A DNA stretch of 34,971 nucleotides from Enterobacterales bacterium (GTDB lineage Bacteria > Pseudomonadota > Gammaproteobacteria > Enterobacterales > Enterobacteriaceae). Of the stretch, positions 17,573-26,312 are shown one piece after another. The number at the start of each line of letters is the position of its first letter. Within the stretch, counting starts at the first letter, position 1. The notes beneath the pieces are model-generated. The model made no database searches, was not told where the DNA came from, and saw only the letters and a list, made by a program, of their open reading frames with translations. The stretch spans positions 1-34,971 of the forward strand of contig JAATGH010000465.1 in assembly GCA_015654745.1 (NCBI GenBank), written 5' to 3'. Both the position numbers and the translations under genes were made by a program.

Positions 17573-18313
17573 CTACATGTTGTTGTACGTGCCTCCAGAA
17601 AAAAATGATTTATCTACCGCGTATCCTTGAAGACGGGCTAAGGTTTCCGGATTAGTGAACATTTCCTGTAGCCCATAGCTTGGCGTGAAGTAAAACGCTT
17701 TTCCCCGCTGTTCTTGCGTGAGGTAGCCTTTATCCACCAGTTCCAGGAAATCACGTCGCGCCGTGGGATAGGCGATGCCATGATTGTTCTTGTGATAGCG
17801 GATCGTAAACTCGGCCTCCGACTTGCGAAGGGCCCGGCCCAGGATGGATCGCTGTCGGTCGTTGAGGTGGATATCTTTCTTGAGCATTTGGCGCAGTTCT
17901 CGATCCCAGTTCTCCCATGCGGCGACATAATGCTCAACGATTCTCAGCGCAACCAGCATCAATTGAGCGGCGAGCGTTTGCAGGGAGGTGAGGTCGCCCG
18001 GGTTTCTTTTGCGCAGGGTTTCATAGGTGGGACGGTCAAAGGATACCGCAGGCGGGAGTATTCGCCCCTCGTCCCAATCCAGCTTGACGCGGGAGGCGGG
18101 CAGCAGCCCCAGGACCGGCAGTTGATGTTTGAGCGCGTAAAGATGCGCAACCAGACTTCCGACCTGGTAACTGACCTGTTTGAGCGGGCGATAGAAGCGA
18201 AACGAATCCGTGAGAATCAGGGCGCGCAGGATATCATGATCATACTCGCCGGTTTCATGGTTCGCGTAGGCGGCAATATAGTCCATCTGCCGGTCGGCAA
18301 ACTGCTCGGTCAT
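17573..18313 (-). CDS. Fic-like protein, C-terminal half (catalytic motif lost)
   Basis: Encodes 246 residues. The central part follows the Fic fold ('HDILRALILTDSFRFY' then 'LVAHLYALKHQLPVLGLLPAS'). Where active Fic AMP-transferases have HPFxDGNGRxxR this one has 'YRPLKQVSYQVGS' (41-53), so the catalytic His, Asp, Asn and Arg are gone. Residues 150-215 form a Fic-type winged helix ('TARRDFLELVDKGYLTQE'). It is in the same frame as the upstream gene, separated only by one TAA stop and four codons, so the two were almost certainly one gene. No good ribosome site precedes this ATG; expression would need reinitiation or readthrough. It is either decaying or a two-part pseudoenzyme. Confidence 0.65.
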   Translation of the reverse strand: MTEQFADRQMDYIAAYANHETGEYDHDILRALILTDSFRFYRPLKQVSYQVGSLVAHLYALKHQLPVLGLLPASRVKLDWDEGRILPPAVSFDRPTYETLRKRNPGDLTSLQTLAAQLMLVALRIVEHYVAAWENWDRELRQMLKKDIHLNDRQRSILGRALRKSEAEFTIRYHKNNHGIAYPTARRDFLELVDKGYLTQEQRGKAFYFTPSYGLQEMFTNPETLARLQGYAVDKSFFSGGTYNNM

Positions 18314-18325
18314 CTCATCCGGCCA

Positions 18326-18955
18326 TTAATACAGTCCCGTGCCCAGGGATGCCTTGGTCGTTGCCAGGGCGCTGATGTCCACCCCTTCAAGCAGGCGATC
18401 GCGCAGGTGCATAAAGAGGTGCCGGGAGAACGGCTCGCCAAGTAAATCGGGCAGGTGGTCGATGGCGCTAAACGTATTGGCCACCAAACGTTCAGTCGCA
18501 TTACGTGGCGCCCGATCAAGCCTCAGTTGGATGTCCGCATCCCGCATGGAGAGCGCGAGACCGTCAAGACGCGCGGCGGCGATCACTTCGGGGATGCGCA
18601 CGTTCATCAGAAAATGCTGACCTCCCGCGGAGGTCATGGTCCGGTGCAGCGGGGAATCCGGGCCACAGGCGCGGGTGACAATGCTTATCACATCGGTAAT
18701 TTCATGGGTACGGCGATACCAGTACTCGCCGTTATTTAAATCCGGAATCGGCAGCTCGATGCCCATATAGCGGCTCATCCGATTCATGACTTCCCACATG
18801 CCGAGAGGACTGATGTTGGGGGGGAGCCTCAGCGACAAGAACTCATCCCAGGACATACACTTCTGTGAGAAGCGCTTGAGCAGAGCCTGAAACGCGTGGT
18901 CGTCCAAAAGTTCTTCAATCCCTTGCCCCAATGAATATGTTCTAGCGTCGTTCAT
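18326..18955 (-). CDS. Fic-like protein, N-terminal half
   Basis: Encodes 209 residues ending at an in-frame TAA (18328-18326). Residues 119-160 match the N-terminal helix region of Fic proteins, in which 'RAPRNATERLVAN' (148-160) corresponds to the common 'RKPRNKSERMIxN' block. The autoinhibitory motif normally written S/T-xxx-E-G/N is here 'AARLDG' (about 127-132), so both the Ser/Thr and the Glu are replaced. The ATG has an AAGAG-like ribosome site. Together with the downstream half the full product would be about 460 residues. Loss of both the inhibitory Glu and the catalytic HPF motif is consistent with a pseudoenzyme or with relaxed selection. Confidence 0.65.
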   Translation of the reverse strand: MNDARTYSLGQGIEELLDDHAFQALLKRFSQKCMSWDEFLSLRLPPNISPLGMWEVMNRMSRYMGIELPIPDLNNGEYWYRRTHEITDVISIVTRACGPDSPLHRTMTSAGGQHFLMNVRIPEVIAAARLDGLALSMRDADIQLRLDRAPRNATERLVANTFSAIDHLPDLLGEPFSRHLFMHLRDRLLEGVDISALATTKASLGTGLY

Positions 18956-19114
18956 AATGAACTCTTCATGGATTCTGTGGTTGACCTCAAGACTGGATTA
19001 AGGCGGGTTGTCGGCAGCCTGGCGCCAGCGTTTTCCTCGGCCGGGCCAAAATTCTTGTCTAGCCGGGCGGGGAAACGGTGCTTTATGCTATCTGAATCGC
19101 GGCTGACCTATACA

Positions 19115-19137
19115 AAATGTATATATATAGTACATTT
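19115..19137. promoter_or_regulatory. Dyad AAATGTA-N9-TACATTT
   Basis: Seven-base arms (19115-19121 and 19131-19137) are exact inverses around an AT spacer, about 160 bases upstream of the Fic-like gene on the minus strand. It looks like an operator; the factor is unknown. Confidence 0.4.
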
Positions 19138-19338: not shown

Positions 19339-19354
19339 AGTGATGTAAATCACA
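19339..19354. promoter_or_regulatory. CRP-like site AGTGATGTAAATCACA
   Basis: AGTGA-TGTAAA-TCACA matches the CRP consensus TGTGA-N6-TCACA at 9 of 10 defined positions. TATAAA at 19407-19412 could serve as the -10, placing the CRP site near -72, a class I position, with a leader of about 180 bases before the SDR start. This points to catabolite control of the SDR/ETF operon. Confidence 0.55.
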
Positions 19355-19596
19355 GTATGTTATTTCTAAATCATGTAAGTGGCGGCCGAAATAATGACCA
19401 TCGATGTATAAAAAATCTATATTTCTATTTTTTATAGGATATGAAATTTTAAGAAATATATACAAAATCTATATATTGACAGATTGATTGCGGAGACTTA
19501 ACTTGATGAAAAATAGCATATTAATAAGATTATCCGAGCGCCGTCGCCGCTAAAGGACAGCCGCTCTCATGGCTTATTCTTTAAGAGGATGTGATC

Positions 19597-20358
19597 GTGC
19601 CTAGACAATTGTTGGATTTTACCGGGAAGGTGGTTGTCATTACCGGCGGGAAGTCTGGTATTGGACGGGCTGCCGCCATTGCTTTCGCTCGTCAGGGCGC
19701 TCAGGTTGTTATCGCCGGCAGGAGCAACGCGAATGAGACACTGCGCGTAATCAAGGATGATGAAGGTGAGGCCATCTTCGTCCCAACCGATGTCAGCGTT
19801 GCGGCCGATGTCCAAAATCTGATCAAGATCACCTTGGATACCTATGGCCGGCTTGATATTGCCTTCAATAATTCCGGCCTGCTGCCGGTAACCGCCAATC
19901 TGGTTGATCAGACCGAAGCGGACTTCGATAAGATCATGTCCGTCGATCTTAAAGGCCTCTTCCTGTGCATGAAATACCAAATCCCTGAAATGCTCAAAGC
20001 CGGATGTGGCTCAATTATCAACTGCGGATCGGTTGTCAGCCTGGTGGCCGACCCGGGAATGAGTCCGTACGTGGCGGCCAAGCATGGCGTCGCGGGCCTC
20101 ACCAAAGCCGCCGCGCTGGAGTACGCGCAAAGTAATATTCGCATTAACGCGATTTGCCCGGGCTTCACCGCCACCGAGATGACCAAAGGGTGGATGGAAA
20201 ACCCGCAAATGCGCGAGTTAATCAAGTCGTTCAACGCGACAAATCGAATTGCCACCCCGGACGAAATTGCGGGCATTGTCCTATTCCTGGCATCCCCGAT
20301 GGCATCCTTCATGACCGGCGCGGTCATCCCGGTGGACGGTGCTCAAACCGCGCATTGA
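19597..20358 (+). CDS. SDR-family oxidoreductase, first gene of the ETF operon
   Basis: Encodes about 253 residues. 'ITGGKSGIG' near residue 15 is the nucleotide-binding turn, 'NNSG' is the NNAG-type motif, and 'NCGSVVSL' with 'YVAAKHG' supply catalytic Ser, Tyr and Lys. The C-terminus 'FMTGAVIPVDGAQTAH' is typical of classical SDRs. GTG 19597 sits eight bases after AGAGG and is preferred; GTG 19591 would leave only two bases. It probably oxidises a hydroxy compound (or reduces the ketone) that is also handled by the downstream flavoprotein. E. coli has a comparable SDR (ygcW) near its ygc ETF genes, an analogy of content only. Confidence 0.88.
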   Translation: MPRQLLDFTGKVVVITGGKSGIGRAAAIAFARQGAQVVIAGRSNANETLRVIKDDEGEAIFVPTDVSVAADVQNLIKITLDTYGRLDIAFNNSGLLPVTANLVDQTEADFDKIMSVDLKGLFLCMKYQIPEMLKAGCGSIINCGSVVSLVADPGMSPYVAAKHGVAGLTKAAALEYAQSNIRINAICPGFTATEMTKGWMENPQMRELIKSFNATNRIATPDEIAGIVLFLASPMASFMTGAVIPVDGAQTAH

Positions 20359-20430
20359 TCGCCCCCCTGCATTTGCACCGGTCTCAATGTCAATGTGGGC
20401 CGGTGAGCTGATTTTGGATGAGGTAAAGCT

Positions 20431-21165
20431 ATGAAGATTATTGTTGTGTTCAAGTGGTCAATGAATCCACAGGATGCACGGGTGGGGGCGGATGGTTCCG
20501 CCAACTGGCAAGGCGTCAAAATGTCGGCAAGTGACGATGATCCCGCGGCGCTGGGCGTCGCCAGAGACATTGCCGCCACCGGGGATGAAATCATTGGACT
20601 CACCATCGGTGATGGTGATGTGGCGTGGGCCGCGGCACGCGGCGCCTCAAGCACGGTCGCCGTGACCGATATACAGACAGGGTTGGACAGTGCGTCCACT
20701 GGCGCCATCTTGGCCGCCGCCGTGCGCCATATCGGCGGCGTGGATCTCGTCCTGATGGGCGACTCTGTATGGGATTACGGCGTGGTGGCGGCCCTGGCGG
20801 GCCAACTGGGATGGGCCGCCCTCGCCAATGTCGTATCGGTCAGGGTGGACGCGGGTTGCCTGCGGGTGACCCGCAAGCTTGGTGGGGTGACTCAGTTGGT
20901 AGACGTGACCGGTCCCGCCTTCCTTGCCGTTGCCGCGAGCCGGGCTGAACAGCACGTGCCCAGCATGAAAGATGTCCTCGCCGCGCGCAAGAAGCCCGTC
21001 GTTAAGCTGACGTTGGCGGACTTGGACATCAAATCCACCGCCACGGTAACGTCGCAAGGAACGCGGCTCCCCGATTCGGCACCGGCACGGATCATCGGTG
21101 GCGCGGATCCCGCCGCGGCAGCCAGGGAGTTGCTGACGATACTGCGCACGGAGGGAGTTCTGTGA
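20431..21165 (+). CDS. Electron transfer flavoprotein beta subunit (FixA-like)
   Basis: Encodes 244 residues, matching ETF beta/FixA length. The start 'MKIIVVFKWSMNPQDARV' and 'SASDDDPAALGVARDIA' are the N-terminal Rossmann-like ETF domain; 'LVLMGDSVWDYGVVAALAGQLGWA' and 'VTRKLGGVTQLVDVTGPAFLAV' are hallmark beta-subunit blocks, and 'VPSMKDVLAARKKPV' is the conserved C-terminal segment. It pairs with the alpha subunit to shuttle electrons between a flavin dehydrogenase or reductase and the FixC quinone oxidoreductase. It follows the SDR by 72 bases and precedes the alpha subunit by 52. Confidence 0.9.
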   Translation: MKIIVVFKWSMNPQDARVGADGSANWQGVKMSASDDDPAALGVARDIAATGDEIIGLTIGDGDVAWAAARGASSTVAVTDIQTGLDSASTGAILAAAVRHIGGVDLVLMGDSVWDYGVVAALAGQLGWAALANVVSVRVDAGCLRVTRKLGGVTQLVDVTGPAFLAVAASRAEQHVPSMKDVLAARKKPVVKLTLADLDIKSTATVTSQGTRLPDSAPARIIGGADPAAAARELLTILRTEGVL

Positions 21166-21217
21166 GCTCGAACTTTGCCGTTGTCGCTAAACCGGTGCAA
21201 ATAACAGGAGGATTTTA

Positions 21218-22144
21218 ATGAATCTGGACAGTTGGATTATCGTTACCGACGAAAGGCGTATCGGCGGGATGCTTGCCGCCGCGCGGCGGCTCGGTGGCTT
21301 CACCACCGCGGCCGTGGTCGGTCCCCGCGCCTTGGCTGACGTCGCCGCCGCCACCGGATTTGACCGGGTACTTTGGTATGCCCCGACTGATGGCGCGCCT
21401 GTCGAGTCCTACGCCGAGCCAATCGCCGCAGCCTTGAAGGCGGCGGGGCCACGCGTCGTGCTGTCGTCCGACGCGCCGGCGGGGCGAGTTCTGCTGGGCG
21501 TTGCGGCGATGGGTCTGAACGCCGCCGTCGTTGCCTCGGTGCGGGGGCTTAATGTGGCGGGCAATAACATTCTGGTAAGCCGTGCCGCTGCCGAGGGCAA
21601 GGTCGTCGAAACGCTTGAAGCCCTTGACACACTTGCATGCATCTTCGATGGGGAAGATGTCCCGCCGACCCCCACTCAGCCCAGGATAATCGAACCGGCG
21701 CCGATCTTGGGCTCGGGCGGCGCGATGCGGGTGGTGGACTCTGCCGGGGCAGGCGCCGACAGCGCCGGATTGCTGAGCGCAACGCGGGTGGTGGGCATCG
21801 GCTTGGGATTGAGGGCGAAAGACGACCTGACACAGATCGAAGAACTGGCCGCGGCGGTCCACGCGGAGATTGCCTGCTCGCTACCCGTATGCGATGACAT
21901 GCGCTGGTTTGAGTCATCCAGGGTCGTTGGATCGTCGCATAATCAGATCGCGCCAGATATCTACATTGCCGTGGGTATCTCTGGACAGCCCCAGCATATG
22001 GCGGGTGTACGCGACGCAAAGGTGGTCGTTGCCATCAACAACGATCCCGAGGCCAGGATATTCAAGCATTGTGACATCGGTATCCTCGGCGATCTCTATC
22101 AGGTCGTTCCCGCGCTGACGGCGGCGTTTAAGGCCGCCAACTGA
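21218..22144 (+). CDS. Electron transfer flavoprotein alpha subunit (FixB-like)
   Basis: Encodes 308 residues. The C-terminal FAD-binding domain is clear: 'VVGIGLGLRAKDDLTQIEEL', 'SSRVVGSSHNQIAPDIY', 'IAVGISGQPQHMAGVRDAK' and 'VVVAINNDPEARIFKHCDIG'. The usual RQVGQTG stretch is replaced by RVVGSSH, so the FAD environment may differ from mitochondrial-type ETF. AGGAGG precedes the start. It forms the heterodimeric ETF with the upstream beta subunit. The subunit order beta then alpha is as in fixAB of E. coli carnitine metabolism. Confidence 0.9.
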   Translation: MNLDSWIIVTDERRIGGMLAAARRLGGFTTAAVVGPRALADVAAATGFDRVLWYAPTDGAPVESYAEPIAAALKAAGPRVVLSSDAPAGRVLLGVAAMGLNAAVVASVRGLNVAGNNILVSRAAAEGKVVETLEALDTLACIFDGEDVPPTPTQPRIIEPAPILGSGGAMRVVDSAGAGADSAGLLSATRVVGIGLGLRAKDDLTQIEELAAAVHAEIACSLPVCDDMRWFESSRVVGSSHNQIAPDIYIAVGISGQPQHMAGVRDAKVVVAINNDPEARIFKHCDIGILGDLYQVVPALTAAFKAAN

Positions 22145-22184
22145 ACGGGCTTCGACAAATCTGAACGTAACAGGAGAGAATAAA

Positions 22185-23675
22185 ATGGCTGAACAGAATG
22201 TGTCCGTCGATGCCGAGTATGATCTTATCGTCATCGGAGGCGGCGGCTCGGGTAAATCCGCCGCGCTAACGGCAGCGCAGAGCGGACTGCGGGTTGCGCT
22301 ACTGGAAAAAAAACCGGAAACGGGTGGATCCTCCATTTATGCCGAAGGCACGGCGGCCTTTGAGTCGAGCGAGCAGAAAGCGCGTGGCGTTCCGGAGCAT
22401 GAAGGGGCGCATTTCCCTACTCGGGGCGAGGGTTTTCGCCGCTATATCGAATACAGCCACCATCGCGCCAATCCCGATGTTGTGCGGATGCAGGTCAATA
22501 ACAGCGCCGAAACCATCGACATTTTAAAGTCCATGGGTATTGAGTATACCGACGTGACGATCTACGCCTACGATCAGCCCCTGGAACTCTACACCTTTCA
22601 TCGGCCCGATGGCTTGGGCGCCCACGTCCAGGACATTTTGCTGCGCGCCTGCATTAACGCGGGCGTGGATATCTTCACCTCGACGCCGGCCAGAAAGATC
22701 ATCATGAAACACGGCGCCGTCGCCGGTGTGCTGGCCGAGGACTCGGACGGCAGTCAAATGAATCTCGCCTGCCAGGCCGTGGTCATCGCCAGCGGCGGCT
22801 TCGGCAACAACCCGGAGATAAGAAAGAAGTATTCATGGCTTGCACGCTATCTCGACGATACCTATCAATGCGTTCCCACCCAAAACACGGGTGACGGGCT
22901 TACCATGGCGCTCGAGGTCGGCGCCGATACGGATAACATCGGCGCGCTGATGATCATCCCGTGCGCCCGTGGCAAAACCCTGACTTCGCATATCAGCGGC
23001 GCCGGTTCCCAGCCCGTGTTATGGGTCAACAAAACGGGCCGCCGCTTTGCCAACGAGGAGGTCGCCATGAGCTTTGCCGACGCGGGCAATGTATTGGCCA
23101 GGCAACCGGAGTCGACCGTGTACTCGATCATCGACGGCGACACCGTGCGACACCTGATGGAGAACGGCTCGGATATCGGGTTAGGCGACTTTATCGAATA
23201 TAAAATGAAGCTTAGCCGGCTTTTGGCTGAACTCGACAAAGATGTAGCCGACGGCCTGGCGTGGAAGGGCGACACCATTAACGCTCTGGCCAAGGCAGTG
23301 GGTCTTGACCCGGCGGTGCTTGAGCAGACGGTGGACGAGTATAACGCGGCCTGCGACCAGGGGTATGATTCCCTATTCTATAAGCCCGCCAAGTTCCTAC
23401 GCCCGGTACGCCAAGGGCCGTTCTATGCCATCAACCTCACGGGAAGCGTGCTGGTGTCCTCCGGCGGCATTCGGGTTAACGGCAACCTTCAGGTTACCGA
23501 CAAAGACTATCAGCCTATCCCGGGCCTGTACGCCGTCGGTAATGATGCCAGCGGACTTTATGGCGATACCTACAACCTGGATGTACCCGGATCGGCAAAC
23601 GGTTTCGCCCATACGTCGGGACGCATGGCGGCACGGCATGTGATCACGTTCCTCAAGCACGCGCCGATCGTCTGA
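22185..23675 (+). CDS. FAD-dependent oxidoreductase, fumarate reductase/ketosteroid dehydrogenase-like
   Basis: Encodes 496 residues of the FAD_binding_2 family. The N-terminal dinucleotide motif is 'VIGGGGSGKSAALTAAQSG' (about 17-35), followed by 'LLEKKPETGGSS'. The C-terminal FAD contact reads 'PIPGLYAVGNDASGLYGDTY', closer to 3-ketosteroid dehydrogenases than to fumarate reductase. No heme-binding CXXCH motif, FMN-binding domain or signal peptide is present, so it is a soluble cytoplasmic enzyme needing an external electron carrier. Lying between ETF alpha and FixC-like genes, that carrier is almost certainly the ETF. It probably reduces or forms a carbon-carbon double bond next to a carbonyl; the substrate is unknown. 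Confidence 0.85.
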   Translation: MAEQNVSVDAEYDLIVIGGGGSGKSAALTAAQSGLRVALLEKKPETGGSSIYAEGTAAFESSEQKARGVPEHEGAHFPTRGEGFRRYIEYSHHRANPDVVRMQVNNSAETIDILKSMGIEYTDVTIYAYDQPLELYTFHRPDGLGAHVQDILLRACINAGVDIFTSTPARKIIMKHGAVAGVLAEDSDGSQMNLACQAVVIASGGFGNNPEIRKKYSWLARYLDDTYQCVPTQNTGDGLTMALEVGADTDNIGALMIIPCARGKTLTSHISGAGSQPVLWVNKTGRRFANEEVAMSFADAGNVLARQPESTVYSIIDGDTVRHLMENGSDIGLGDFIEYKMKLSRLLAELDKDVADGLAWKGDTINALAKAVGLDPAVLEQTVDEYNAACDQGYDSLFYKPAKFLRPVRQGPFYAINLTGSVLVSSGGIRVNGNLQVTDKDYQPIPGLYAVGNDASGLYGDTYNLDVPGSANGFAHTSGRMAARHVITFLKHAPIV

Positions 23676-23771
23676 CCGTTCTGCTCCCGCCCTTCACCTA
23701 TCCAATCTCTGATGTTTGGCTAGGGCGGGATATGAATTTTTCCGGTGAAGGATTGAAGGAGTACGCAATAT

Positions 23772-25082
23772 ATGGCGGAAGATGTTAATTCTCCGGACGT
23801 TGATTTTGACGTTATCGTTATCGGGGCGGGTGTGGCCGGCTGCGTAACCGCATACCAATTAGCCGTCAAGGGGCATTCCGTATTGCTGGCTGAACGGGGC
23901 TCAAAACCAGGCAGCAAGAATCTCTCCGGCGGCGTTTTCTATTGCCGGGTGATGGAAGAAGTCTTTCCCGGCTTTGTCACCGAGGCGCCGATTGAGCGGC
24001 GCATCACCCGTAACTGTTTGAGTTTCCTTACACCGTCATCCTTTGTGAATGTGGACTACCGCGACGCGCGCCTGGCGCAGTCCGTGACGGCCGTGACCGT
24101 GCTGCGGGCTAAACTCGACGATTGGCTGGCCGGCAAATGCGAAGCGGCCGGCGTCACGCTGATGCCGGGCGTCAAGGTGGACTCGCTGGTTAGGAACGGA
24201 GATCAGATTGTCGGTATCAAGGCGGGTGACGATGAATTACGCGCCCATGTGGTCGTCGCCGCCGATGGTGTGAACTCGTTTATCTGTCAGGATGCGGGCA
24301 TCAGGGAGAAAGCGCTGACCAAGCATCTGGCCGTAGGGGTAAAGTCAGTTATCAAGTTGCCGCGCAATGTGATCGAGGAACGATTCAACCTGACGGGAGA
24401 CGAGGGCGCCGCGTATGCCGTGGTGGGGGATTGCACCAACGGCGTGGGGGGCGGCGGGTTTATGTACACCAATATAGATTCCATATCGATCGGGGTGGTT
24501 CTAAGGCTCGACGACCTGGAAAAACGAGGCGAGACCTCATCAGATTTGCACGATAGGTTTCTTGCTCATCCGGCGATCGCGCCATTTCTCAGCGGTGGCG
24601 AATTACTCGAGTACGGCTGCCATATGGTGGCCGAGGGGGGGGCGGCGATGGTGCATGACCTCACCCGGCCGGGGCTGGTGGTAGTGGGCGACGCGGCGGG
24701 ATTGACATTAAACACCGGCCTGACGGTGCGCGGCATGGATCTGGCCGCCGGATCGGGGATAGCGGCGGCGAAGGCCATTGACAGCGCACTGCGAAAGGGC
24801 GATTTCTCTCAGGTCACTTTGGACGTCTACGCCGCCGAACTTAACCGGTCTTTTGTCGGACAGGATATGCGTACCTATGCCAAGGCGCCAAGGTTTATGG
24901 AGACTCCGCGGATTTATGGCGACTACGGTGTACTGCTGAGCGACATATTGTACGGGGCATACAACCTCGACACCCGTCCGCGCCAGCGTCTGCTGCCAAC
25001 CGGGATGGCGGCGTTGCGGAAATCCCCGCTGAAGGTTACTCATCTGGTCAAAGATATTTTCACCGCAATGAGGTCGTTATGA
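23772..25082 (+). CDS. FixC-like ETF:quinone oxidoreductase
   Basis: Encodes 436 residues, the length of FixC/YgcN/YdiS proteins. 'VIVIGAGVAGCVTAYQLAV' (about 16-34) binds FAD; 'SKNLSGGVFYCRVMEEVFPG' and 'AADGVNSFICQDAG' are the FixC landmarks, followed by 'LVVVGDAAGLTLNTGLTVRG'. It should pass electrons between ETF and the membrane quinone pool, with the small ferredoxin FixX as partner. AAGGAG lies ten bases before ATG 23772. The four-base ATGA overlap with the ferredoxin shows translational coupling. The 96-base gap upstream holds arms CCCGCCC and GGGCGGG separated by about 30 bases. Confidence 0.92.
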   Translation: MAEDVNSPDVDFDVIVIGAGVAGCVTAYQLAVKGHSVLLAERGSKPGSKNLSGGVFYCRVMEEVFPGFVTEAPIERRITRNCLSFLTPSSFVNVDYRDARLAQSVTAVTVLRAKLDDWLAGKCEAAGVTLMPGVKVDSLVRNGDQIVGIKAGDDELRAHVVVAADGVNSFICQDAGIREKALTKHLAVGVKSVIKLPRNVIEERFNLTGDEGAAYAVVGDCTNGVGGGGFMYTNIDSISIGVVLRLDDLEKRGETSSDLHDRFLAHPAIAPFLSGGELLEYGCHMVAEGGAAMVHDLTRPGLVVVGDAAGLTLNTGLTVRGMDLAAGSGIAAAKAIDSALRKGDFSQVTLDVYAAELNRSFVGQDMRTYAKAPRFMETPRIYGDYGVLLSDILYGAYNLDTRPRQRLLPTGMAALRKSPLKVTHLVKDIFTAMRSL

Positions 25083-25375
25083 GCAAGACGCAATTTGGCA
25101 CCGTCAGCGAACGGCTTGACGGAAATCGCTACGAGACCGACGCGGAGCAGTCCCATATCCAAATCGACCAGGCCGCGGCCAAGTCTACCGGCGCGGGCCC
25201 TTTATTGGTCCGGATCTGTCCTGCCCATGTCTATTCGATGCAGGCCGACAACACGGTTGGCATTATGTACGCCGCCTGTCTGGAATGCGGTACCTGTCGG
25301 GCCATGGCCCCTCCCGGCGTACTTACCTGGCACTACCCTCGCAGCGGCATGGGGATTGCCTATCGGGAGGGGTAG
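25079..25375 (+). CDS. FixX-like ferredoxin
   Basis: Encodes 98 residues. The four cysteines are spaced as in FixX: one in 'ICPAHVYS' and three in 'CLECGTCR'. The C-terminal 'WHYPRSGMGIAYREG' is also characteristic. It carries an iron-sulfur cluster and completes the FixC quinone oxidoreductase. Start overlaps the FixC stop by four bases. Confidence 0.92.
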   Translation: MSKTQFGTVSERLDGNRYETDAEQSHIQIDQAAAKSTGAGPLLVRICPAHVYSMQADNTVGIMYAACLECGTCRAMAPPGVLTWHYPRSGMGIAYREG

Positions 25376-25445
25376 CCGCCCGGCGGATCGGCAAGATCTT
25401 CATTCTGCAAAATGAGTTAGAACAACAATAGAGGTATAGCTATTT

Positions 25446-26312
25446 ATGCGTATTGAACCCTTGAAGATAAAAGTTTTCATTAGCAGCGACGAACACGACG
25501 GATTCGGTGTCAGCTCCACCATTGTCTATGGCCAAAAGGAAGCCCTGCTGGTTGATTCGCAGTTTACGTTATCGAACGCCCACCGCCTGGTGGCAGATAT
25601 TATCGAAACCGGCCGGCAGCTGACCACCATCTTTATCACCCATCTTCATCCCGATCATTTCCTTGGCCTGTCCGTCATCAAACAGGCTTTTCCCGACGCA
25701 CGGGTGGTCGCCTATCAGCAAGCCGCCGAGGATGTCAGACAGGCTTATGATTTTAAAATCGCCTACTGGGGCAACCAGGTATTAAAGGAAAATGGCGCCA
25801 AAGAAAAGGTCGATGTGGAAACCGCTGATGCTTCGTTCTTGACCCTGGAGGGGCAGCGCCTGGAAATTCTTGGATTATTGCGGGGTGATTGCCTCAATAT
25901 CGCGCCGATCTGGATCCCTTCAATAAAAACCCTGATTGCCTCGGATCTGGTGTTTTCCGATGCGCACGTTTGGGTGGCGGATGCTCGGGATATGAATATG
26001 TTTAATGCCTGGTTCAAGACCCTGGATTATCTTGAAAACCTCGGCGCGGAAGTGGTTGTCCCTGGTCATGGTCCACAAAATGACAGATTGCGTCCCTCGG
26101 CTATCGGTTTTACCCGGCAGTATATTCAAACCTTCCTGAGAACCTATGCCCTGACAAAAGATGCCAATGAATTGATACGGGAAATGGACCGGATTTATCC
26201 TGGCCTGCCCGTCAGGATTTGCCTGGAATACAGTGCAAAAATCCTTAAGGACCACATGGTATGGGAAGGCGACTGGCCAATTTCATTACGTCATACCCAG
26301 GCAACCCTGTGA
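25446..26312 (+). CDS. Metallo-beta-lactamase-fold hydrolase
   Basis: Encodes 288 residues. The HxHxDH motif is 'THLHPDHFLG' (His66, His68, Asp70, His71), the bridging Asp is probably Asp167 in 'LIASDLVFSD', and the final ligand is His208 in 'VVPGHGP'. The usual intermediate His (as in GHT or GHSD) is not seen; the region reads 'LRGDCLN' near residue 147, so one metal site may be altered. It is 70 bases after the ferredoxin and the last gene of the ETF operon. A thioesterase, lactonase or ester hydrolase supplying or clearing a pathway intermediate is plausible, but the substrate is not known. Confidence 0.85.
   Translation: MRIEPLKIKVFISSDEHDGFGVSSTIVYGQKEALLVDSQFTLSNAHRLVADIIETGRQLTTIFITHLHPDHFLGLSVIKQAFPDARVVAYQQAAEDVRQAYDFKIAYWGNQVLKENGAKEKVDVETADASFLTLEGQRLEILGLLRGDCLNIAPIWIPSIKTLIASDLVFSDAHVWVADARDMNMFNAWFKTLDYLENLGAEVVVPGHGPQNDRLRPSAIGFTRQYIQTFLRTYALTKDANELIREMDRIYPGLPVRICLEYSAKILKDHMVWEGDWPISLRHTQATL

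Follow-up and report, generated by a model that had tools for sequence, protein, structure and literature searches.

Locus and operon architecture

The window analysed here is the whole of contig C143 (JAATGH010000465.1, 34,971 nucleotides) of assembly GCA_015654745.1, a genome of 5.05 Mb in 495 contigs that is 83.7% complete and is placed in the genus Sodalis (Enterobacterales). It carries an operon of seven genes, which encode a short-chain dehydrogenase/reductase (SDR), the two subunits of an electron transfer flavoprotein (ETF), a flavoenzyme, the FixC–FixX pair, and a protein of the metallo-beta-lactamase (MBL) fold. All genes are located on the plus strand and are separated by intergenic gaps of 72, 52, 40, 96, −4, and 70 bases:

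19597..20358, plus strand: SDR-family oxidoreductase, presumably NAD(P)-dependent (Pfam/NCBIfam; orthologue in 6/7 operon loci)
20431..21165, plus strand: EtfB subunit, variant without the xQQV/TAQV loop (Pfam, alignment)
21218..22144, plus strand: EtfA subunit, FixB/YdiR-like, FAD domain retained (Pfam, alignment)
22185..23675, plus strand: FAD_binding_2 flavoenzyme of a VprA-like clade, cytosolic by eye, without heme or FMN domain (Pfam, NCBIfam, alignment, tree)
23772..25082, plus strand: FixC-like ETF:quinone oxidoreductase (Pfam, NCBIfam, alignment)
25079..25375, plus strand: FixX ferredoxin-like protein with CxxCxxC and one more Cys (Pfam, NCBIfam, alignment)
25446..26312, plus strand: MBL-fold hydrolase, Vmh-like below the cut-off (Pfam, NCBIfam, model, alignment)

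An earlier inspection of the DNA letters alone (the sequence-only reading) had described these seven co-directional genes as a self-contained redox route; its observation is confirmed and its interpretation partly supported. All open reading frames (ORFs) are present and closely spaced, with the expected domains in Pfam and NCBIfam (SDR; ETF beta; ETF alpha with FAD domain; FAD_binding_2; FixC-like; FixX; MBL fold). The SDR start at 19597, which that reading had used, is preferred to that of the longer ORF (19591), as the orthologue in another Sodalis genome (G003) starts with MPEQLLDF; the SDR ORFs of the window and of Sodalis sp. dw_96 are both also readable from an earlier GTG. The latter strain is the closest named relative at the locus (flavoenzyme 96% identical), and the ratio of nonsynonymous to synonymous substitution rates (dN/dS) between the two, 0.034–0.197 across the seven genes, documents strong purifying selection. 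Because the gene order is also kept in two more Sodalis and in Bacillota, the operon is not a chance assemblage.

A search of the genome's contigs recovered two ETF loci, the one in the window being CoA-free. No CoA enzyme was found by Pfam and NCBIfam within the seven genes, in line with the earlier claim that acyl-CoA dehydrogenase and CoA transferase are missing, and an ETF set of the CoA type (by eye) is present on another contig. The neighbors of this second locus (contig C28, L070) are, by eye, a CoA transferase, an acyl-CoA dehydrogenase, FixC, an MFS protein, and a CoA ligase, resembling the ydi cluster of Escherichia coli.

Distribution and gene order

The operon is rare and patchy. 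It was seen in seven genomes, namely those of the window, Sodalis sp. dw_96, Sodalis G003, Sporomusa silvacetica, S. acidovorans, and two further Bacillota (G376 and G789), and an operon-level flavoenzyme was found in three of six genomes of the genus Sodalis. In genome draws, which are overlapping samples that each count their centre genome, the flavoenzyme was matched in 7 of 147 relatives of the window at E 1e-60 (three at operon level, four with enzymes of 36–38% identity), in 1 of 394 genomes of the order at E 1e-100 and 1 of 321 of the class at E 1e-75 (each time the window's own genome), in 8 of 300 genomes of the Sporomusa class at E 1e-60 (three at operon level), and in 2 of 398 of the Sporomusa phylum at E 1e-100. 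Megablast against E. coli genomes and plasmids returned no match to the locus, and viral contigs gave just two short N-terminal matches. A match from Heimdallarchaeota (L017) was dropped because it spans only residues 1–41 of the flavoenzyme.

The order SDR-EtfB-EtfA-flavoenzyme-FixC-FixX-MBL is shared by the three Sodalis. The sequence-only reading had called for a search for conserved neighborhoods, and the same order up to FixX recurs in two more Sodalis and in Bacillota; the SDR and the MBL protein are not fixed members. Sporomusa silvacetica has the Sodalis order minus the MBL gene, with identities to the window of 74% (SDR), 67% (EtfB), 62% (EtfA), 79% (flavoenzyme), 75% (FixC), and 78% (FixX); no MBL match was found at its locus, where the contig stops 866 bases behind FixX, or at that of G789. 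The locus of G376 lacks the SDR but has the MBL gene, and in S. acidovorans the SDR is truncated. In G789, SDR-EtfB-EtfA-flavoenzyme are followed by a different FixC-FixX (40% and 34% identical to the window) and a second, canonical ETF, from which it follows that the FixCX lineage of the window is no obligate partner. This second ETF and the other FixCX stand directly behind the flavoenzyme (L044, 4040–8683), adjoined, by eye, by genes resembling those of insertion sequences. The constant core of the operon is EtfBA plus flavoenzyme, with the SDR, the MBL protein, and the FixCX lineage as variable members.

All operon genes checked in the window, dw_96, G003, G376, and G789 are open. The copy of S. 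acidovorans is truncated and frameshifted in its contig and was therefore excluded from the alignments. In S. silvacetica, codon 228 of EtfA (L015) is an in-frame TAG at a position occupied by Trp in the other operon EtfAs. A PylS N-terminal protein is encoded in G376 and in both Sporomusa genomes (3/3), and it is possible that the TAG is read through as pyrrolysine.

The flavoenzymes of the Bacillota operons are 64–80% identical to that of the window. The six near-full operon enzymes form one clade against 10 relatives (support 100/100), with a long-branch warning for the operon clade, which is joined to one relative (x45); within it, the enzymes of Sodalis and Bacillota form two groups (87/80 and 90/85). 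A direction of transfer cannot be read from this tree, which is not orientable with its two groups and the long-branch warning. The presence of nearly the same gene set in distantly related anaerobes argues for a real travelling module, and its horizontal sharing between Sodalis and Bacillota is part of the overall explanation to which we assign even odds (see "Proposed function and alternative explanations").

A probably dedicated ETF without the EtfB loop

Most known ETFs either serve acyl-CoA dehydrogenases or belong to bifurcating complexes. The sequence-only reading had named the ETF as the likely electron carrier of the flavoenzyme, and the electron route that it drew is well supported by conservation: EtfBA adjoins the flavoenzyme in all seven operon loci (including the damaged copy of S. 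acidovorans), and none of nine loci with flavoenzymes of 31–37% identity (15–18 kb each; six from relatives of the window, three from the Sporomusa class) matches the operon EtfA or EtfB at E 1e-5, a search that a very distant ETF could escape, given that the EtfB query missed the canonical EtfB of G789 and the EtfA query caught its partner. Among 200 genomes of the Sporomusa class draw, close EtfB matches were confined to the operon carriers G147 and G148, with the next matches at most 35% identical.

The EtfA subunits retain the FAD region and are FixB/YdiR-like near the GQTG site. In EtfB, a three-residue deletion removes the xQQV/TAQV loop, which we take to contact the second nucleotide site, from all six near-full operon copies, and the length is kept in 15 of 15 other EtfBs. 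This set is not random: it joins three E. coli paralogues and the second ETF of G789 to 11 Sporomusa-class matches of the operon EtfB; a twelfth match (L053), for which no ORF was picked, was left out. In bifurcating ETFs, the domain concerned holds the bifurcating FAD, and ordinary ETFs have AMP there (PMC5861303). The loss of the loop points to a dedicated, non-bifurcating one-flavin carrier that would have lost the second nucleotide.

Identity of the flavoenzyme

The best named family of the flavoenzyme is VprA (NCBIfam NF053717), which it matches over nearly its full length with 366.1 bits, short of the cut-off of 600. Scores are lower for flavocytochrome c (190 bits; cut-off 285), ketosteroid dehydrogenases including KstD (at most 178 bits), and ChcC (113–120 bits), which makes the earlier label "KstD-like" a loose one. 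The VprA model is matched by all six operon flavoenzymes. Because six relatives without ETF neighbors score alike, the match does not single out a substrate and is best treated as the name of a clade; the function of VprA was rejected as an answer for the same reason and because the match is too weak. In some loci of VprA-clade flavoproteins in relatives (L020–L025), NrfC/NrfD-like, MFS, and LysR genes were noticed by eye, and these proteins are probably exported respiratory reductases.

The residues H365, R402, H504, and R544 of flavocytochrome c3, which presumably bind and protonate fumarate, align to I258, M295, L423/V424, and Y463, so that none of the four is kept; the position of Y463 is occupied by Tyr in all 16 aligned enzymes. 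In the six operon flavoenzymes, 70 invariant positions are shared with none of the 10 relatives, and an insertion near Y129 is missing from most relatives. These features suggest that the operon flavoenzymes likely have a substrate of their own. As the sequence-only reading had stated, heme and FMN-binding domains were not found (Pfam), and no signal peptide is evident by eye.

SDR, FixCX, and MBL proteins

The SDR matches the ChcB2 model with 192 bits, below its cut-off. The best NCBIfam model of FixC is PRK10015 (425.6 bits; cut-off 466), and each of the nine aligned FixX sequences has at least four Cys. A FixC flavoprotein with a four-Cys FixX partner is the gene pair expected of an ETF:quinone oxidoreductase, and reduction of quinones is predicted. 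The MBL protein scores 202.1 bits against the Vmh family NF040580, under the cut-off of 430. The HxHxDH motif (H66, H68, D70, H71) is invariant in all four copies, as are D167 and H208, and a GDC segment occupies the place where we would expect the third metal-binding His. Its predicted structure (pLDDT 77.7) matches best to 8d2z (Z 20.0, root-mean-square deviation 3.3, 243 residues), followed by class B lactamases (Z 18–19) and chlorothalonil dehalogenase (17.9).

Comparison with known systems

Several clusters of E. coli share parts of the operon. The ygc cluster combines an SDR (YgcW), a flavo-dehydrogenase (YgcU), an ETF (YgcQR), and FixCX (YgcNO), but YgcU presumably represents another type of flavoprotein, and SDR, EtfB, and FixC are only 30%, 24%, and 38% identical to those of the window. 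The ydiQRST and fixABCX clusters share the EtfBA-FixC-FixX block (FixC 45% and 39% identical). However, ydi adjoins a CoA transferase, an acyl-CoA dehydrogenase, and a CoA ligase, and fix adjoins caiT, none of which occurs in the window operon; in addition, the EtfB loop that is lost in the operon is present in both.

By gene content, the closest described architecture is the equol cluster of Eggerthellaceae, which shares all but the MBL protein, and the earlier claim that the combination stands apart from described clusters, made with E. coli only, does not hold. This cluster encodes an SDR (DHDR), THDR, which resembles the flavoproteins of fumarate reductases and succinate dehydrogenases, and ETF and FixCX proteins (fixAB in 18/18, fixCX in 13/18 clusters); the enzymes act reductively (PMC8898433, PMC4381290), and in Adlercreutzia the ETF genes are induced along with the reductases (PMC6566806). 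By contrast, the operon has the MBL protein (three Sodalis and G376) and lacks a daidzein reductase, a racemase, and hydrogenase maturases, which were not found among the seven operon genes (Pfam, NCBIfam) or 13 further proteins of the window (Pfam), with the other ORFs covered by their list only. The vinylphenol reductase VprA of Lactiplantibacillus plantarum represents the best named family of the flavoenzyme but adjoins its LysR regulator (PMC10295242) instead of an ETF and FixCX.

A literature search did not turn up any publication that describes this operon, a weak negative. What is new is the combination of enzyme clade, ETF variant, MBL protein, and taxa; the general plan itself has been described before. 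Strain dw_96 comes from beech deadwood (PMC8226273), and an anaerobic lignin consortium is the source of Sodalis ligni 159R (PMC9241852). A plant-phenolic substrate appears plausible.

Proposed function and alternative explanations

The best explanation as a whole, to which we assign a probability of roughly 50%, is a horizontally shared, CoA-independent redox module, in which the flavoenzyme and EtfBA are linked to quinones via FixCX. The FAD-containing flavoenzyme and its dedicated EtfBA pair would form a physical complex and a single functional unit, which would exchange electrons with the quinone pool via FixC and FixX. Electrons would reside on the flavin of EtfA only, and bifurcation would be impossible. 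The flavoenzyme would most likely act as a reductase on a free phenolic or cyclic substance, at an activated C=C bond or a benzylic position, comparable to THDR and VprA. The SDR would work on the same small molecule by interconverting ketone and alcohol, and in operons that have it the MBL protein might hydrolyze a product or intermediate. This last reaction is a guess; phloroglucinol and cyclohydrolase ideas for the MBL protein were considered as well but not adopted. Altogether, the operon probably reduces or oxidizes a free compound, perhaps a plant phenolic or a cyclic ketone, with electrons moving to or from the membrane. Direction and substrate class are likewise guesses; we lean slightly towards a reductive reaction on a free phenolic or an enone-type cyclic compound because VprA, THDR, and the flavocytochrome c kin are reductases.

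The main competitor, less probable but a serious contender, is an oxidative catabolic module, in which the SDR produces a cyclic ketone that the flavoenzyme desaturates in the manner of KstD or ChcC, with ETF and FixCX passing the electrons to ubiquinone and the MBL protein opening a lactone or diketone. The pairing of an SDR with a KstD-like enzyme recalls the Chc enzymes, and the similarities of the SDR to ChcB2 (192 bits) and of the flavoenzyme to ChcC and KstD (113–178 bits) agree with it, albeit all below the cut-offs and with the reductases VprA and flavocytochrome c outscoring KstD and ChcC. Also KstD has a Tyr in a motif similar to that around Y463, which aligns to an Arg of flavocytochrome c3 and is Tyr in 16/16 enzymes. 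FixC normally delivers electrons to quinone (PMC5861303), and a literature table lists Sporomusa with ubiquinone (PMC8578096), which favors oxidation. Against this module speaks that the MBL protein and the SDR are inconstant members. It is improbable that the operon supplies electrons to nitrogenase or ferredoxin as a bifurcating, FixABCX-like complex to which the flavoenzyme would be accessory: nifHDK occurs in wood-associated Sodalis (PMC8226273), and FixABCX of Azotobacter vinelandii bifurcates (PMC5861303), but the EtfB loop is gone in 6/6 copies, and just 3/6 genomes of the genus have the operon. More improbable still is an ordinary soluble fumarate reductase operon, which would accord with the FAD_binding_2 domain and the 190 bits for flavocytochrome c; this score is under the cut-off of 285, and none of the four presumed fumarate residues is kept.

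Besides the ubiquinone entry for Sporomusa, several points weigh against the quinone-linked, CoA-independent module that we prefer. All six scanned relatives without ETF neighbors also match VprA best (268–480 bits), the assembled copies of both named Sporomusa carry damage, and G789 has another FixCX and a second ETF. The likeness to THDR is one of published descriptions, and the role of fixABCX in equol production is only suggested in the cited paper. A more specific version is doubtful and is offered tentatively: the operon may encode a new type of ETF that has lost its second nucleotide site and is bound permanently, as a one-flavin subunit, to a VprA/KstD-like enzyme; this enzyme would act as a CoA-free, quinone-linked reductase or desaturase on a free plant-derived compound, and the whole would have spread between Sodalis and Bacillota. 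In general, a module conserved in two phyla, in which a CoA-free flavoenzyme is paired with a reduced ETF of its own and with FixCX, would extend the range of enzymes that ETFs serve. It would also matter for the part, so far unproven, that fixABCX plays in equol-type clusters, and it offers a testable route in deadwood Sodalis and acetogens.

Upstream region and divergent gene

The region upstream of the operon contains a divergent gene and three copies of an operator-like 16-mer:

17573..18955, minus strand: divergent gene, likely a regulator, 459 amino acids in two other Sodalis, split here by one in-frame TAA (alignment)
19109..19124, plus strand: operator-like 16-mer TATANAAAATNTATAT, copy 1 (motif scan)
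19407..19422, plus strand: operator-like 16-mer TATANAAAATNTATAT, copy 2 (motif scan)
19459..19474, plus strand: operator-like 16-mer TATANAAAATNTATAT, copy 3, right before a TTGACA (motif scan)

A search of 118 genomes found the divergent gene in three, all of the genus Sodalis; at the Bacillota loci, the divergent gene is a LysR gene in both cases tested, and G789 looks alike by eye. The intact orthologue matches no family in Pfam (E up to 1) or NCBIfam, and its AlphaFold model has a pLDDT of 33.8. Membership in the Fic family, considered from motifs seen by eye, was rejected: a PDB profile search gave one chance-level match (E 1.6), and hhalign against Fic proteins aligned 39 C-terminal residues (probability 1%, E 0.055).

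Promoter and terminator scans of the locus were close to chance, and a candidate CRP site (19339–19354) was dismissed as not significant (one match, 0.62 expected). The 16-mer, a pattern picked after viewing the sequence, occurs in three exact copies between the divergent gene and the operon and nowhere else in the window with up to one mismatch; with up to two mismatches, there are five matches in the window, compared to 0.25 expected. Similar sites are present at the same place in dw_96 (three within one mismatch) and G003 (two).

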